A DNA stretch of 64,000 nucleotides from Klugiella xanthotipulae (lineage in GTDB: Bacteria > Actinomycetota > Actinomycetes > Actinomycetales > Microbacteriaceae), in the NCBI RefSeq assembly GCF_006716695.1, contig NZ_VFPN01000001.1, forward strand, positions 1,240,001-1,304,000. The letters are read 5' to 3'. The notes below the pieces were generated by a model. That model did not search any database. It was not told the DNA's origin and saw only the letters and a list, made by a program, of their open reading frames with translations. A program made the position numbers and the translations under genes. Shown one piece after another: positions 55,557 to 64,000 of the stretch (position 1 is its first letter; each line of letters opens with the position of its first letter).

Positions 55557-56432
55557 ATGACGAACTCAGAAAAGCCAAGCTCTTTCTATGAGCTCCTTGG
55601 CTCCATTCGTCGTCGCCCGGAGGCATACCTCGGGAATCGCTCCCTGCATGACCTCCGGGTCTGGCTTGACGGCTACCGCTACGCGCGCGCTCAGATGGGG
55701 GTGAATACTCCCGAGGAGGAGGAATTCACGCACTTTGACACGTTTGTGCAAAACAAGTATTCGTGGCACGACACGAGCGGCTTTGAGGCCAAGATCGCCT
55801 ATTACCACCGCGACCCCAGTCGAGCGTTTGACGAGTTCTTCACGCTGCTCGACGAATTCCGCATCGCGCGCCCCGTGGCCGCTGCTGCGGCGGCCATGAG
55901 TAAGCGTGCACGTACGCGCGTGGCAGACCCCGCCCCCGAGCCGCTCCCCGTTCAGTACTCGGTGGATGCCCTGGCGGAGCTGGCCCGTACTGTCGGTGTT
56001 GACAGTTCCGCCCTGGCCAACGAGGATGCCCGGTGGGACGCGTACCGCCGCGTGATCGAGTCCCGTGCGCATGTGGATCTGCTCTACTCGTGTGTGAAGT
56101 CCGAGCCCGACCCGGCCCTGGCCTCCGCCGTCGTGGTTGAGGTGCTGGAGACGGTGCCTCCGCAAGACCGCGGTCGCTGGGTGGAGGCCGTTGACGACTC
56201 GCAGAAAGACTCCGTGCGCACTCGTGAGTGGGAAATCGGCGTACTCGACTCCCTCAACGCGGGTCAGAAAAATGTCAGCGACGTCAAAATGTCGGTTGAT
56301 AACTGGTCCAATTGGTTGCAGCAGCGCATCGCCGAGACCGAGATGAGTTGGGATGTCCTGGCCGTCATCGCCTCGCGCGGGCGCACCAAGCGCATCCGCC
56401 GCTACGCCTCAGAGCGCCTGCGTCGCCTGTAA
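55557..56432 (+). CDS. Hypothetical two-domain protein
   Basis: A 291-aa protein. The first 105 residues (SSFYELLGSIRRRPEAYLGN, LHDLRVWLDGYRYARAQMG, FDTFVQNKYSW, AFDEFFTLLDEF) form a compact helical domain like those of several small immunity-like families that share an LxxIRxRPxxYLG start. An Ala/Arg/Pro linker (about 108-130) joins a helical second domain (about 131-291), HEAT-like at the end (WDVLAVIASRGRTKRIRRYA, LRRL). I cannot name the family. An 8-codon frame ends in the overlapping ATGA at the start codon. It is followed by a non-coding gap and another unknown gene. Confidence 0.7.
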   Translation: MTNSEKPSSFYELLGSIRRRPEAYLGNRSLHDLRVWLDGYRYARAQMGVNTPEEEEFTHFDTFVQNKYSWHDTSGFEAKIAYYHRDPSRAFDEFFTLLDEFRIARPVAAAAAAMSKRARTRVADPAPEPLPVQYSVDALAELARTVGVDSSALANEDARWDAYRRVIESRAHVDLLYSCVKSEPDPALASAVVVEVLETVPPQDRGRWVEAVDDSQKDSVRTREWEIGVLDSLNAGQKNVSDVKMSVDNWSNWLQQRIAETEMSWDVLAVIASRGRTKRIRRYASERLRRL

Positions 56433-57341: not shown

Positions 57342-60173
57342 TTAGTCGGCGGGCAGGTCGGCCGGTGGTGAATCGACGGCGGAACGGACCGCAGCGGCCT
57401 CCTCGTGACGGCCCAGGTCCGCCAGAATATCGCCGAGTTCGAGCGACATGATGTTCCAGTGGGGAGACGCGATCGGCAGCCGTTCGCGTGCCGACTGGTA
57501 CAGGGGCACCGCCTCCTCACGGTGCTCACGCTCCGCCAGCGCGCGGGCCACAAAAAGCTCGGCGAGAGCGGCGGAGGCGTCATCCTGCGACTCCGCATAC
57601 CCGTCGGCCGCACGCAGGGCAGCACTCACAGCCTCGTCGATCCGGCCCAGGGCCTGATAGCCGCGGGCGAGGCTATCGGTGAGGTCCGCGATCAGCCACG
57701 GTGAGCCTTGATCGCCGGCCAGGGCGATGGCCTCCTCGATGGTGGCGAGGCCCGCCTCCTCTCCGAAGAAGGCCTGCGCGTTGCCCAGCCGTTGCAGGGC
57801 GAGAATGGTGGCCTGGGGGTTGTCGAGGGCACGGGCTGCCGCGGTGGCCTGCCGGAGCGCCCCCACAGAATCCTTATCGCCCTGGTTCACCAGCAGGGTG
57901 CCGAGGGCGAGGCTGGCCCGCATGAGTAGCACATTGTCGCCCGCCTCGGTGGCGTAACGGACGGCCTGCTGCCACGCACCGTAGGCCATGGCGTTCTCGT
58001 CAATGACGCGGGCCGCTTCGCCCATAACGTACAGGATGTCGGCGAGAACCGTGAGTTCGGCATCCGCCGCTCGCAGCTGCGTGTAGGCCTCATCGAGTTT
58101 TTCGAGTCCCTCGGCGGAGTGGCCCGCGTAGTGCAGGTAACGGCCCAGCTGTGCCGTGAACTCCGGGATGTTGGGCAACTCGGCGAGTTCCGCCTGGGCG
58201 ATGGCGTAGCGCATCCGGTGGGCGGCCTCCTCGTCGCGGTTGTGGTCGCTCAGGAGCACCGCCGAGAGCAGGCTCGCGGCCACGGTGCCGGTGCGGTTGC
58301 CCAGACGGGCCTGGAGCGCGACAAGCTCTTCGGCCAGGGCAATACCGGTGGGGTAGTCGTTGGAGGCCCCGGCGATCTGGGCGCGAATGACCATAGCCGG
58401 GATGCGCACGCGGGGGCGGTTATCGGCCGTGACCAGGACATCTAGCTCGGCGATGGCCTCCTCGAGGCGGCCGAGCGCGAGCAGCGTGTGGGAGTGCAGG
58501 AGGCGGGCTGAGGGCTGGATATCGTGCGGGTCGGACACGGTGGTGCGGGTGACGGCCTCGCTCACGAGCTCCTCCACCCAGGTGACGGCCTCAGCGGTGG
58601 TGCCCTCAGCATCGCCGAGTGCAGCCTCGGCGGTCGTGAGGAGCAACTCCACCACCACATCGTCGGGGTCCCCGCCGTCGCGGCTGCGTTCCAACTCGTC
58701 GCGGAGGACTCGGAAGCGGGCGGGATTGTTGTCGTCGTAGAGCAGCATCCCGAGCCGCTCCTCCAGGGCGGCCGTGTCGGCTCGGCCCGTGGCGCGCAGC
58801 TCGGCGAGACGCTGCTGGAACGACTCCTCGGCAGCCTCCTCCCGGCCCAGCGACTGGTTGACGCGAACGGCCAAACCGAGCAGGGAGGCCCGCCGGTTGT
58901 CGATGGGGAGGCGCAGCCCGGTCTCCACGGCCTCCTTCGCGGCCGCCGCATCGCCGGACATGAGGAAGACGATGGCCCGCTCGCACCACTCATCGGCGGT
59001 GGTGGGCTCCTCAACCGTGGGCTCCGGGTCGCGGAAAGTGTCCGTGGCGATGGGCACATCGTGATGCTCATCGGCGAGGGCCCGCGCGGCGCGCACCCGC
59101 TGGGTGAAGTGCGCGTTGCCGTTGCGGGCGTTGAAGGATGCGGCCAGCCGCTCCGCCGTGTTCCACGCGGCCATCGAGAGCGTATTGACCGTCCACGGCT
59201 GGGAGTGGCCACCGTAGATACCCGCAAGTTCGGCGGTGTCGGCACCGCGGACGGGCTGATGGCCGTAGCCTGCCGCGGCCACGGCATCCAGAATCACGCC
59301 CACCGCGAGCATGGCGCTGAAGTGCGCCGCCTGGTTGAGCGGGTCGTTGGCGATCATCCCGATGTGACGCTCCAGGAGGGCGAGGCCACGGGCCTCGTTG
59401 CCCGTGACGGCGCAGAAGATGAGGTGATGGCCGATGAGGTTAAACGAGTTGGGCTGACGGCGGGCAACTCGATAGCTGTGCAGGTGGGCAGCGCGGGCGT
59501 CGGCGAAGCGGCCAGCCCGCAGCAGGGGGAGAAGAGCCTCGGCCTCGGCCGTTTCGGGCTCCGCCCCGCAGCTGAGGTGGTTCTCGATGATGTCGTCATA
59601 GACGCTGAGCGCTCGCGGTTCATCCCCGATCTGCTGGAAGTACCAGGCATCTTCGCTGCGCACACAGGCGGCGCAGTGACTGAACTCGTCCTCGGGGACG
59701 GCGTTTCGCGCCTCGCGCAGTTCCTCGGCTTCGTCGTACCGACCGGTCAACACCGCGGTGGTGAAACGCGACTGGAGCACGCCGCTCTGGGTGGCCCCGT
59801 ATTCCAGGTAGCGACTGGCCATGTCCACATGCATGGCGTCCATCTGGTCGAGGCTGAACATGGGGTTGGTGGTGAGGCGGCCGACCATCCACTTGTACTG
59901 GAAGAGGAGGTTTCCGCCGGGGGTGTCGAGGGGGAAGCGCACGGGGTCGCTGTCGTGCATCCCAACGCACCAGCCGAACGAGCTGAACATGGCGTCGGTG
60001 TCGCCCGTCATGTGGGCGGATTGGGTGAGCCGCATCCGCGCGGCGTAGCCTAGCTGGGTGTCGCGGGTTTCGTCGGCGAGGCGGATGGCCTCGGCGAGGA
60101 GCGCGCGTTCCTCGGGCCCGTAGGGCATCCCGTCGATCTGTTGGATGACGTCGTATGTGGGTTCGTCAGTCAT
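57342..60173 (-). CDS. Large TPR-repeat protein, downstream paralogue
   Basis: A 943-aa soluble protein made of helical TPR-type repeats; repeat-like units are clear in LGDILADLGRHEEAAAVRSA, ALGRLEEAIAELDVLV, SLARGYQALGRIDEAVSAAL and similar. No Walker A, kinase or nuclease motif and no membrane segment is seen. The first 210 residues align without gaps to the neighbour at 60306 (about 51% identity), including YGPE at 18-21, YAARMRL, GMHDSDP at 71-77, and the SHCAACVR motif with Cys167/Cys170 and Cys202. These cysteines may bind zinc. It lies third in a leftward run after an HSP90-family gene and the paralogue, with GGGAGGA upstream of the ATG. Confidence 0.85.
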   Translation of the reverse strand: MTDEPTYDVIQQIDGMPYGPEERALLAEAIRLADETRDTQLGYAARMRLTQSAHMTGDTDAMFSSFGWCVGMHDSDPVRFPLDTPGGNLLFQYKWMVGRLTTNPMFSLDQMDAMHVDMASRYLEYGATQSGVLQSRFTTAVLTGRYDEAEELREARNAVPEDEFSHCAACVRSEDAWYFQQIGDEPRALSVYDDIIENHLSCGAEPETAEAEALLPLLRAGRFADARAAHLHSYRVARRQPNSFNLIGHHLIFCAVTGNEARGLALLERHIGMIANDPLNQAAHFSAMLAVGVILDAVAAAGYGHQPVRGADTAELAGIYGGHSQPWTVNTLSMAAWNTAERLAASFNARNGNAHFTQRVRAARALADEHHDVPIATDTFRDPEPTVEEPTTADEWCERAIVFLMSGDAAAAKEAVETGLRLPIDNRRASLLGLAVRVNQSLGREEAAEESFQQRLAELRATGRADTAALEERLGMLLYDDNNPARFRVLRDELERSRDGGDPDDVVVELLLTTAEAALGDAEGTTAEAVTWVEELVSEAVTRTTVSDPHDIQPSARLLHSHTLLALGRLEEAIAELDVLVTADNRPRVRIPAMVIRAQIAGASNDYPTGIALAEELVALQARLGNRTGTVAASLLSAVLLSDHNRDEEAAHRMRYAIAQAELAELPNIPEFTAQLGRYLHYAGHSAEGLEKLDEAYTQLRAADAELTVLADILYVMGEAARVIDENAMAYGAWQQAVRYATEAGDNVLLMRASLALGTLLVNQGDKDSVGALRQATAAARALDNPQATILALQRLGNAQAFFGEEAGLATIEEAIALAGDQGSPWLIADLTDSLARGYQALGRIDEAVSAALRAADGYAESQDDASAALAELFVARALAEREHREEAVPLYQSARERLPIASPHWNIMSLELGDILADLGRHEEAAAVRSAVDSPPADLPAD

Positions 60174-60305
60174 GGTGAGTGGGTCCTCCCTTCCCGTCGG
60201 GGTCCACAGTACCGTGAACGGGATGAGGAATACCCGAGGCCCGGCCTACCGCCCTGCGCGGGTGCGGGCACGGTCGAGTTGGCGATCCACGGCGGCCATG
60301 ATGCC

Positions 60306-63197
60306 CTACTCCCCGGTGGTCGGCTCGTCACCCGTCGGGGTGATCCCGGCGCGCACCTCGGCGGCCTCACCATGCCGACCCACGCTTTCGAGGGTGTCTG
60401 CGAGCCGGACTGCCATGGCGGCCCAGTTGGAGGAGCCCTCCTCAAACCGGGAACAGGCCGAGCGGAAGAGGCCGATGGCGGCCTCGGGGTCGGTATCGGC
60501 GATGCGGGTCGCGGCGTAGTACTCCGCGGCCCCGGCCTGCGGAAGCAGCTCGACCTGAGTGAAGGCGTCGGCGGCCCGGAGGGCCATGCTCACGGCCTCC
60601 TCCAGGCGGCCGAGCGCCCCGAGGGCGCGGGCCGTGTCGTCGAGGATGTCGGCGGCCCAGGCCTCCGCTCCCAACTGCTCCACGATTCGGTGCGCCTCGG
60701 CGAGGGTGTCGAGGGCCTCCTCCGCCCGAGCGCACTGGGTCTGGGCGACGCCCAGCTTGTGCAGTGCGGCTCCGATGAACTCGGGGTGTTCCGTGGTTCG
60801 GGCCGAGGCGAGGGTGATCTCCGCCACCTCCACGGCCGCCTCATCCCGGAAACGCAGGAGTAGCGTGGTGAGCGAGGTGCCCACCTCGTGAAGGAGGGCG
60901 GCTCCGTTGGCCTCCTCGGCGAGCAGCCCCAGGGCGCGGTTCCAGGCCCAGTAGCCGAGGCCGTACTCTTCGGAGTTGTACGCCGCGCTCCCCATCCAGT
61001 ACAGGGTGCTTGCAATGTCGAATGGAGCCGCCGTCTCATCGGCATCCAGCACGCGGTACACGGCGTCCAGCTGTTCCAGCGCCTCCATTGGGTGACCGGC
61101 ATACAGAAGGTGGCGACCCAGGGCGCTGCGCAGTTCCAGCACACGGGGGCTTTCGGCCCGTTCGGCCTGGGTGAGCGCGTAGAGTATCCGCTGCACGGCC
61201 TCCTCCGTGCGCCCCGCGTTGCCCAGCAGATTGGCCGAGTAGTCGGCGACCTGGATGATACCGCCGCGCACGTCATACGTGACCAGCGCGTTGAGGAGGT
61301 CCTCGGCCCGGGCAATGGCCGTGGCGCTGTCGTTCTGGGCTGTCGCCGTCTGACTGCGGCGGAACAGTGCCGACAGCTGAATGAAGGTGCTCTTCGTGGG
61401 TTCGGCGAGGATGGCGTCGAACTCGTGGATGGCGTCATCAATCCGGTCGAGTGCGAGCAGGGCCTCCGCGTGATGGAGGCGCGCAACGCCCAGCAGATGC
61501 AGCGAATCATCGCGTGCGGCGAGGGCCACCGCTTCGGCGCTGAGCGTCTCCGCTTCGACGGCGAGGGCAGCCGCTTCGGCAGCGCTCTGAGGGCTGCCCG
61601 ACACATCGAGAAGGGCCCGGATGAGAATCTGTGTATTGCCCCCGGCCCGGGCCCCGGTCACCCGCTCGCGCAGGGTGGCCAGGCGGGTGTCGGCGTCGTC
61701 GGGGGCTTCCTCACCGACGGGGTTCTCGTTAAGAACGGCATCTCGGAAATCTGCGTACTCGGTGAAGCCCGCAGCCCGCAGGACGGCGTTGGCGCTGCGC
61801 TGCGCTTCGGCGGCGAGAGCGTGCTCCGCGCGGCGGGTATACAGCAGTGACTGGGTTCCCCACAGTTCGGCATGGGTGAGCGCGGTGGCGATGCGTGCCG
61901 GGTCGGTTCCACCGTCGGTGGGGGTCTCCGCGAGGGCCAGTCCGGCCGAGACCGCGGCCTGTGTGGCCTCACGGTCTTCCGAGAACAGGGCCGCATGGGC
62001 GAGACTGAGCCACTCCGCGGCCGACTGCGGGGTGGCTCGCACCGGCTCGGGTGCCCGGAAGCTTTCGCTCTGGATGCGCACCTCGTAGTGTTCGGTGGCA
62101 AGCGCCCGCGCCTCGGCGAGGCGGGTGCTGAAGTGGGTGTTGCCGTTGCGGGTGTTGAATTTCTCGGCGAGGCTCTCGGCGGCGACCCAGCAGGCTGCCG
62201 CGAGCTCCGCGGCCGTCCAGGAGGTGTCGCGCTCACCAAGGTACCCGTGGAGTCGGGGGGCGTCGGCACCACGGACGGGCTGGTGGCCGTGGCCCGCGCG
62301 GGTGACGGCATCCAGCAGCACCGCCATGGCGGTGAAGGTGATGAAGTGGTCGAGGAAGTTGAGCGGGTCGCCGACCACCCGACCGATGTGACGCTCCAGC
62401 ATCGCGAGCCCGCGGGCCTCGTTTCCGGTGACGGCGCAGAACACGAGGTGGTCGGCAATGATGGTGATGCCGTCGAGTTTGCTGCGTGAGGCCCGGTAGC
62501 TGCGCAGGTGGGCGGTGCGGGCATCGTCCAGGCGGCCGGCGCGCAGGTAGGGCAGTAGCACCTCGGCCTCGCTGCGCTCCGGCTCATCGCCACAGCTGAA
62601 GTTGTTGGCGAAGATCTCGTCGTAGAGACGGACGGCCTCGGTCTCGTCGCCGAACACCCGGTAGAAACCCGCATCCTCTCTGCGAACGCAGGCCTCGCAG
62701 TGGCTGTAGTCGTCACGCTCGATCAGGTCGCGCTCCGCGCGGAGGCGGCGCGCCTCATCCAGATAGCCCATCGGTACCGCGACGCCCAGCTTGGCCTGTA
62801 GCACGCCGCTCTGCGAGAGACCCGCCTCCCGGTAACGGCGCTCCATATCGCCGTGGATCTCGGTGATCTTTTCGAGAGGAAACAGCGGGTTGACTCCGAG
62901 TGCCTCGGAGATCCACTTGAACTGCCAGAGCAGATCGCCCCCGTCCGTCTCGTAGGGGTATCGGAGGGGGTCGCTGTCGTGCATCCCCAGGCACCAGGCA
63001 AATGAACTCAGGAGGGTGTCATGGTCTCCCATATTGAAGGCCAGGTTACTGAGTCGCATCCGGGCGGCGTACGCCAGATCGTTGTCACCGCTCTCCTCGG
63101 CCTGGCGGATGGCCTCGTCGATGAGATTGCGTAGCTCCGGTCCGTAGGGAAGGTTGTCAATCTGTTCCAGAATATCGGCGCGGGGGGTGTCAGACAT
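60306..63197 (-). CDS. Large TPR-repeat protein, upstream paralogue next to HSP90-family gene
   Basis: A 963-aa helical-repeat protein with the same layout as its downstream paralogue: conserved N-terminal part (1-210) with YGPE, WCLGMHDSDP (68-77), SHCEACVRREDA (165-176) and SCGDEPE, then many TPR-like units such as ALGALGRLEEAVSMALRAAD (in parts) and LADTLESVGRHGEAAEVRAG. No enzymatic motif is visible. ATG at 63197 is preceded by GAGGA. It is 124 nt from the end of the HSP90-family gene and 132 nt ahead of the paralogue, all on the minus strand. TPR proteins often bind HSP90 tails, so a co-chaperone or adaptor role is a reasoned guess. Confidence 0.85.
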   Translation of the reverse strand: MSDTPRADILEQIDNLPYGPELRNLIDEAIRQAEESGDNDLAYAARMRLSNLAFNMGDHDTLLSSFAWCLGMHDSDPLRYPYETDGGDLLWQFKWISEALGVNPLFPLEKITEIHGDMERRYREAGLSQSGVLQAKLGVAVPMGYLDEARRLRAERDLIERDDYSHCEACVRREDAGFYRVFGDETEAVRLYDEIFANNFSCGDEPERSEAEVLLPYLRAGRLDDARTAHLRSYRASRSKLDGITIIADHLVFCAVTGNEARGLAMLERHIGRVVGDPLNFLDHFITFTAMAVLLDAVTRAGHGHQPVRGADAPRLHGYLGERDTSWTAAELAAACWVAAESLAEKFNTRNGNTHFSTRLAEARALATEHYEVRIQSESFRAPEPVRATPQSAAEWLSLAHAALFSEDREATQAAVSAGLALAETPTDGGTDPARIATALTHAELWGTQSLLYTRRAEHALAAEAQRSANAVLRAAGFTEYADFRDAVLNENPVGEEAPDDADTRLATLRERVTGARAGGNTQILIRALLDVSGSPQSAAEAAALAVEAETLSAEAVALAARDDSLHLLGVARLHHAEALLALDRIDDAIHEFDAILAEPTKSTFIQLSALFRRSQTATAQNDSATAIARAEDLLNALVTYDVRGGIIQVADYSANLLGNAGRTEEAVQRILYALTQAERAESPRVLELRSALGRHLLYAGHPMEALEQLDAVYRVLDADETAAPFDIASTLYWMGSAAYNSEEYGLGYWAWNRALGLLAEEANGAALLHEVGTSLTTLLLRFRDEAAVEVAEITLASARTTEHPEFIGAALHKLGVAQTQCARAEEALDTLAEAHRIVEQLGAEAWAADILDDTARALGALGRLEEAVSMALRAADAFTQVELLPQAGAAEYYAATRIADTDPEAAIGLFRSACSRFEEGSSNWAAMAVRLADTLESVGRHGEAAEVRAGITPTGDEPTTGE

Positions 63198-63321
63198 GGG
63201 GGTCCTCGGGTGTTGGGGTGGTGGTGTCGCTTGTCAGCCCGGTGTGCGAGGAGGTCTGGGTGCGACCTATAGCGACGAGCTTAACACCGTTGTGATGGGC
63301 GTACGCTGTGGGTGCGCGGCC

Positions 63322-64000
63322 CTAGTCCAGCCCCACCGAGAGCTGGATGAGGTCGGTCATGGCCTGCCCCAGCATCCCACGATCCGCGGTGCTCAGCGGG
63401 CGGTGTCCGGCGAGCAGCGCCTGCACGTAGAGCAGCTGGATGCTGCGGTCAAAGACCACCGGGTCGTTCAGCCCGGCGAGTGTGCGCACGAGTTCACTGC
63501 CCCAGTTGAGGCAGAGCTGGGCCTGGGCCGTCGCCGCTGCTTCCTCGCCCTGGGTGGCGGTGAGGAAGCTGTCCACATTCTTCACCACCTGTGACCACAG
63601 GCCCGGTGCCACCGTCGCGGCCTTGGTGCGCTCCATGCGCTTGAGCACGGCCGGGTCGGCCACGTATAGCGCTGGGATGTCGTGCGGGTTGAAGGAGCGC
63701 ACCGACACCCGGCAGTCCACCCCGGCGAGTACCGCGGAGGCGCGGTCCTCCAGCGAGACCACCCGGTCGCGGTCAGCGAGCGGTGGGATGTCGAGGCTGT
63801 CCAGCTCGTCGGCCACCGTCACCCGCTCGGTGGGCATCCCATCGTTCAGGAGCGGCAGGCGCTCGAAGAGGTCGTTGTCGTACACGTAGCCGCCGTTGGT
63901 GATCGGGGCGTCGGCTGAGGCGATGGGGGCGAGCTGGCGAAACTCGTCCACCGTGGAGGTGTAGCGCAGTACTCCGTACTGGTCGCGGTAGTCGGCGAGG
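63322..64000 (-). CDS. HSP90-family protein, C-terminal part cut by the window edge
   Basis: The frame is open to the right edge; about 225 C-terminal residues are seen, from YRDQYGVLRYTSTVDEF and MDEFRQLAPIAS onward. Landmarks of the shortened HSP90-family proteins of actinobacteria are YGVLRYTST, the middle part FNPHDIPALY, and the end region SIQLLYVQALLAGHRPLSTADRGML (in parts: LLYVQALLAGHRPL). The ATPase domain lies outside the window, so the call rests on this end. There is no MEEVD-type tail; the protein ends TDLIQLSVGLD. It is the first gene of the run leading into the two TPR genes. Confidence 0.7.
   Translation of the reverse strand, partial: LADYRDQYGVLRYTSTVDEFRQLAPIASADAPITNGGYVYDNDLFERLPLLNDGMPTERVTVADELDSLDIPPLADRDRVVSLEDRASAVLAGVDCRVSVRSFNPHDIPALYVADPAVLKRMERTKAATVAPGLWSQVVKNVDSFLTATQGEEAAATAQAQLCLNWGSELVRTLAGLNDPVVFDRSIQLLYVQALLAGHRPLSTADRGMLGQAMTDLIQLSVGLD

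Follow-up and report, generated by a model that had tools for sequence, protein, structure and literature searches.

A 64,000-nucleotide (nt) stretch of the Klugiella xanthotipulae genome, here called the window (contig C1, positions 1240001-1304000, of the 2.98-Mb, 4-contig assembly G000), ends in an HSP90-family gene followed on the same strand by two tandem genes for large tetratricopeptide repeat (TPR) proteins, TPR1 and TPR2. We consider it reasonably probable that this locus encodes a two-component chaperone, in which an ATP-driven Hsp90 clamp of the little-studied PRK14083 subfamily depends on a co-chaperone or adaptor dedicated to it. To judge from the comparison of gene sequences across genomes, the HSP90 and its partner almost certainly work together; the partner would bind the HSP90 physically and deliver clients to it. 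In every locus that could be evaluated, in several bacterial phyla, the partner gene stands beside the PRK14083 gene. Some Hsp90s of bacteria may thus be served by a helper protein of their own, much like those of eukaryotes.

The HSP90 gene occupies positions 63322-64000 of the window on the minus strand and continues past its end to about position 65187; the whole frame, recovered from the assembly (L001:7323-9188, minus strand), encodes 621 amino acids (aa). It is separated from TPR1 (60306-63197, minus strand, 963 aa) by 124 nt (63198-63321), in which neither a terminator-like nor a sigma-70-like site was found. A second gap of 132 nt (60174-60305) separates TPR1 from TPR2 (57342-60173, minus strand, 943 aa). 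A preliminary description of the window had given these coordinates, lengths, gaps, the gene order and the common strand, all of which are correct on recheck. It had also described the partners as duplicated, and the two are indeed paralogues with 42% identity over their length.

The linkage was examined in 350 genomes of the Microbacteriaceae, the family to which K. xanthotipulae belongs; 47 of them carry a PRK14083 HSP90, in 49 copies. A single-sequence search places a partner 30-140 nt downstream of 37 of the 49 copies, and a profile search shows that the remaining 12 adjoin a diverged partner. The co-occurrence of the HSP90 and TPR genes (Fisher p about 1e-29), together with the adjacency in 37 of 49 copies, excludes chance. 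The part of the partner that is shared across genomes is an N-terminal core of about 365 aa. With an iterated profile of this core, its gene is found directly adjacent to the HSP90 gene and on the same strand in 118 of 121 PRK14083 loci; the other three stop at a contig edge, so that all 118 evaluable loci carry the pair. The partner lies downstream in 110 of these and upstream in 8, and the commonest spacing is a 4-nt stop-start overlap, present in 42 loci (ATGA in 29, GTGA in 13). The 121 loci include 80 from named organisms that were added by a contig scan and represent best relatives only, and Mycetocola is counted twice among the 121 (L130 and L146). More distant PRK14083-like proteins may behave differently from these 80; no such selection affects the phylum samples.

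These samples agree with the larger set. Among 296 genomes of Actinomycetota, the core is present in 10 of 10 genomes with a PRK14083 HSP90, as against 2 of the remaining 286, and adjacency holds for all 12 copies. The corresponding figures for 164 Bacillota genomes are 3 of 3 and 0 of 161. Among 155 Myxococcota genomes, all 56 with the HSP90 have an adjacent core, with 18-81 nt between match ends, while a core occurs in 1 of the 99 others; nearly all of the 56 genomes are of 9 Mb or more. The classical chaperone gene behaves differently, since no core was found within 1.5 kb in 20 control htpG loci, and no full-length core was found in Bacillota genomes with htpG alone. Many genomes have both HSP90 types, and in these the core stands beside the PRK14083 gene. 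The association of HSP90-family and TPR genes put forward in the preliminary description is thus real, but it is restricted to the PRK14083 subfamily and never involves classical htpG in the loci tested. Partner homologues adjoin an HSP90-family gene in nearly every instance, so that the first of the two refuting conditions set by that description was checked and came out in its favour.

The adjacency persists despite reversal of gene order, duplication and carriage on a plasmid (in Streptomyces globosus), and the core family extends over Actinomycetota, Bacillota, Myxococcota, Planctomycetota and Acidobacteriota. Distance matrices of HSP90s and cores, compared over 113 pairs, correlate with r=0.92, a value that none of 2000 permutations approached (highest 0.16). 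No third conserved gene was found at the PRK14083 loci, and no HSP90-core fusion proteins were found. Loci L100-L107 from Microbacteriaceae relatives form a divergent lineage in which the partner is upstream of the HSP90, overlapping it or nearly so, and is devoid of the three cysteines that most cores share; genomes G380 and G644 carry two HSP90 loci of this lineage.

Once its N-terminus is read, the partial gene in the window is HSP90-like, which is the second refuting condition to come out in favour of the preliminary description. The 621-aa protein scores 693.5 bits against NF010683/PRK14083 ('HSP90 family protein'; cut-off 455), matching positions 5-596 of 604, and is a member of this family, which is named but has no described partner. 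Against NF003555, the HtpG equivalog model, it reaches 165.2 bits, under the cut-off of 371, and against Pfam HSP90 it reaches 15.6, under 24.4. Its designation as a non-classical HSP90 therefore holds, as does the reported lack of an MEEVD tail: the (M)EEVD ending is missing here, and neither EEVD nor EEVE ends any HSP90 of the 121 loci. Across 84 aligned HSP90s, the ATP-site residues E36, N40, D79, G81, G83, K101, G114, F116, G117 and G119 are invariant, and so is the catalytic arginine of the middle domain, R322. An AlphaFold2 model (m5cf4029e011d; mean predicted local distance difference test score, pLDDT, 92.4) aligns with HtpG over 552 residues (Z 30.8, root-mean-square deviation, rmsd, 5.4) and with cytosolic Hsp90 over 561 residues (Z 30.5, rmsd 5.9), the C-terminal region included, and shows all three domains, N-terminal, middle and C-terminal, within a single chain. 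By its modelled fold and its ATPase residues, the protein is predicted to be a full chaperone, complete with the C-terminal part through which HtpG dimerises. It thus resembles classical HtpG (PDB 2iop, 9a6t) in its three-domain fold, ATPase residues and middle-domain arginine, but differs from it in profile score and in the presence of a partner gene.

Canonical htpG appears to be absent from the K. xanthotipulae genome, in which no Pfam HSP90 match was obtained at the search threshold. Classical HtpG is seemingly absent from the 350 Microbacteriaceae genomes as well, as they yield none of the 140-200-bit matches typical of htpG elsewhere; the PRK14083 protein, present in 13% of them, would therefore be the only Hsp90 there. 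The geldanamycin-insensitive HtpG of Streptomyces hygroscopicus (PMC3603443) was considered as a characterised member of the subfamily and rejected, because the leucine that it carries at yeast position 92 is not diagnostic: this residue occurs in most PRK14083 proteins, but classical actinobacterial HtpGs share it.

The partner combines a conserved core with a variable tail. The structure model of TPR1 (m8f53eb65f6ab) is all-helical, with a mean pLDDT of 92.9, and structure comparison, which covers mainly residues 565-960, identifies the second half (about residues 540-960) as a TPR superhelix of the peptide-binding kind, resembling KLC1 (Z 19.7, 194 residues, rmsd 3.0), LGN/Pins (Z 18.4-19.3, 277-309 residues) and O-GlcNAc transferase (OGT). 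The superhelix, taken as about residues 540-950, is encoded at 60348-61580 (minus strand). LGN/Pins, kinesin light chain and OGT share the fold of this half as a scaffold, and no common function is implied. The core (residues 1-372 of each protein; 62082-63197 in TPR1 and, by alignment, 59058-60173 in TPR2, both on the minus strand) is better conserved, with a mean column conservation of 48% over the first ~370 residues, as against 38-39% for the remainder. Its signatures are FAWCL, FKW, DDMExRYR, SDCxAC, C-x3-P, TGN and FDxRNG, and the arginine of the last is invariant across 91 partner sequences. No Pfam or NCBIfam model covers the core, and a profile search of solved structures in PDB returns generic TPR or designed-repeat matches alone, weak in sequence. 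The label 'TPR protein' accordingly suits the C-terminal half, although Pfam TPR matches to the partner are weak, and suits the core less well, since Pfam hardly recognises it as TPR.

Core and tail also differ in their distribution. C-terminal halves differ widely in length and sequence, with the core staying conserved, and outside Actinomycetota the partner usually consists of the core alone, as in Clostridia (360 aa), Myxococcota (369 aa), Acidobacteriota (381 aa), Planctomycetota (376 aa in L181 and L205, 383 aa in L200), Paenibacillus (353 aa) and Listeria (324 and 322 aa). Most actinobacterial partners carry tails, which bring them to about 550-1030 aa; what can be recognised as a TPR array is an extension at the C-terminus and is missing from the partners read outside Actinomycetota. 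The core alone is probably the ancestral form of the partner. This distribution suggests that the core serves the HSP90, while the tail would serve something else, most simply clients.

The preliminary description dealt with two partners; a single partner is the rule, and the pair in the window is an exception. Tandem duplication of the partner beside a single HSP90 arose about five times, the other instances being Listeria, a Bacillota genome (G766), a metagenome-assembled genome of Micromonosporaceae (L185) and Crossiella (L186). In the core tree, the two members of four tandem pairs are each other's sisters. Those of the window are not: TPR2 clusters with the single partners found in relatives, and TPR1 falls outside that cluster. 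The TPR2 core is 61-63% identical to these single-copy partners, compared with 54% to the TPR1 core. The non-sister placement implies that the duplication is older or that one copy was acquired. In the Listeria record, an 'HSP90 family protein' is followed by two genes annotated as 'hypothetical protein', which are the tandem cores; by gene order beside fri, the HSP90 and core genes correspond to lmo0942-lmo0940 (PMC3534079). Of these, lmo0941, listed as a hypothetical protein, has been reported to bear signs of selection in neuroinvasive strains (PMC6901971). In Listeria monocytogenes (L218:5001-10099), the HSP90 and its two tandem cores stand back to back with the ferritin gene fri, and behind them lie genes for an SMI1/KNR4 family protein and a low-molecular-weight tyrosine phosphatase.

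We propose that the HSP90 dimer would act as an ATP-driven clamp, for which its catalytic residues and three-domain fold argue. The ~365-aa core of the partner may dock on the HSP90 through a surface of its own rather than through an EEVD tail, and the docked core could then regulate the clamp or pass substrate to the HSP90. The C-terminal superhelix of actinobacterial partners, to judge from its fold, would add a peptide-binding groove for particular clients, and duplicated partners, as in K. xanthotipulae and Listeria, would give one chaperone two client specificities.

Several observations weigh against this interpretation. Heat-shock operators are not enriched at these loci, since of 121 loci 1 has a HAIR- or CIRCE-like site upstream of the HSP90 and 11 have one at any position, which is the chance level. 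The HSP90, TPR1 and TPR2 genes of K. xanthotipulae do not overlap, and the correlation of HSP90 and core trees is also expected from joint vertical descent. Cores also exist without a nearby HSP90 (ten loci in Microbacteriaceae, two among the sampled Actinomycetota, one in Myxococcota and some in Planctomycetota), so the core can have other roles. The ten orphan cores from Microbacteriaceae relatives (L221-L230) are full-length, with no HSP90 within 14 kb; those of L221 and L222 adjoin an Mrp-like ATPase, and those of L224, L225 and L227-L230 adjoin a large membrane protein that carries a 'GxDxARG' motif and, judged by eye, resembles an acyltransferase. The Actinomycetota (L237, L238) and Myxococcota (L263) examples occur in genomes without a PRK14083 HSP90, and the neighbours of the last include Tex-like and RecA-like genes.

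Since the HSP90 is never found without the core in evaluable loci but cores occur alone, the dependence is one-sided, which also fits an arrangement in which the HSP90 serves the partner. The partner would then be the client, a helical-repeat effector or sensor that does the actual job and is matured or stabilised by a private chaperone. A variable C-terminal half on a retained core would be expected of an effector with changing targets. Orphan cores, however, evidently persist without a PRK14083 HSP90, and the TPR groove and the repeated duplication of the partner fit an adaptor equally. HSP90 clients, moreover, are seldom gene-linked to their chaperone, which counts further against this alternative, and we regard it as unlikely, though as the strongest competitor of a dedicated co-chaperone.

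The pair might instead form a sensor switch without a general folding role, in which the core would respond to metal or redox state and the GHKL ATPase would relay the signal. A three-cysteine motif (C167-x2-C170 ... C202-x3-P206 in TPR1; 62592-62699, minus strand) is a possible metal or redox site by its sequence pattern, each cysteine being present in about 80 of 91 partners; the ferritin neighbour in Listeria would suit such a function. The motif is, however, lost as a unit in 11 partners, including the whole upstream-partner lineage; fri was seen as a neighbour in Listeria only, and the HSP90 retains its middle and C-terminal chaperone domains. A sensor switch is accordingly improbable.

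A conflict or anti-phage module composed of a GHKL ATPase and a repeat protein is more doubtful still. It could account for the patchy presence in the family (47 of 350 genomes), for the copies on plasmids and for the weak hits of the ATPase domain to PADLOC models of TmtA and of a restriction enzyme, but these hits cover the shared GHKL fold alone and the partner gives no match. An effector domain was not found, the neighbourhood in K. xanthotipulae is metabolic, and the presence in 56 Myxococcota genomes looks like a stable lineage trait rather than that of a defence gene. Finally, the notion that the adjacency is inherited by descent and without functional meaning, consistent with the congruent trees, is close to refuted, as the adjacency survives several phyla, order reversal, duplication and patchy loss, with translational overlap, and classical htpG shows no such linkage.

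A dedicated co-chaperone has its nearest functional counterparts in eukaryotes, where Hop/Sti1, FKBP51/52 and PP5 are TPR-fold proteins that serve Hsp90. The bacterial system differs in that its HSP90 lacks the (M)EEVD tail, conservation in the partner centres on a part other than the recognisable TPR array, the TPR similarity of the core is generic, and the genes are linked in operon-like pairs. Among bacterial chaperones, Chen et al. 2006 (PMC1525184) distinguished HTPG groups A, B and C and reported two copies of different groups in Streptomyces coelicolor (638 and 615 aa), with no mention of a TPR partner; PRK14083 probably corresponds to one of these groups, likely Group C. The core beside the NF010683 HSP90 is annotated as 'hypothetical protein' in Listeria and Streptomyces plasmid records. 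An earlier account of the HSP90-core pair was not found in the open-access literature (searched for HtpG with TPR, co-chaperone or operon, and for lmo0942), which is weak evidence of absence. While the HSP90 subfamily had already been named, what appears to be new is the pairing of an Hsp90 with a putative TPR-type co-chaperone that is bacterial, gene-linked and free of EEVD.

The surroundings of the locus in K. xanthotipulae include genes for a proline dehydrogenase/PutA-like protein and an FMN reductase. Just past the partner genes, at 55557-56432 (plus strand), lies a 291-aa frame without a Pfam match, which starts with an 'RRPEAYLG' stretch that may mark a short conserved domain. Elsewhere in the assembly, two 856-aa GHKL ATPase frames with identical scores (G000:C1:6978-7343, near a contig start, and G000:C3:651520-651885, near a contig end) are probably an assembly overlap and not two genes.

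An Hsp90 that is never found without its partner gene offers a direct handle on its function through co-purification, joint deletion and the use of the partner as client bait. The pair also defines an unmodelled protein family, the ~365-aa core, which includes the 'hypothetical protein' genes next to lmo0942 in Listeria monocytogenes. We lean, by a narrow measure, towards the view that several bacterial phyla possess a second Hsp90 machine, whose work would require a co-chaperone dedicated to it and belonging to a new protein family; the pairing of Hsp90 with TPR-type co-chaperones would then exist independently in bacteria and eukaryotes, with docking in bacteria that may dispense with EEVD.

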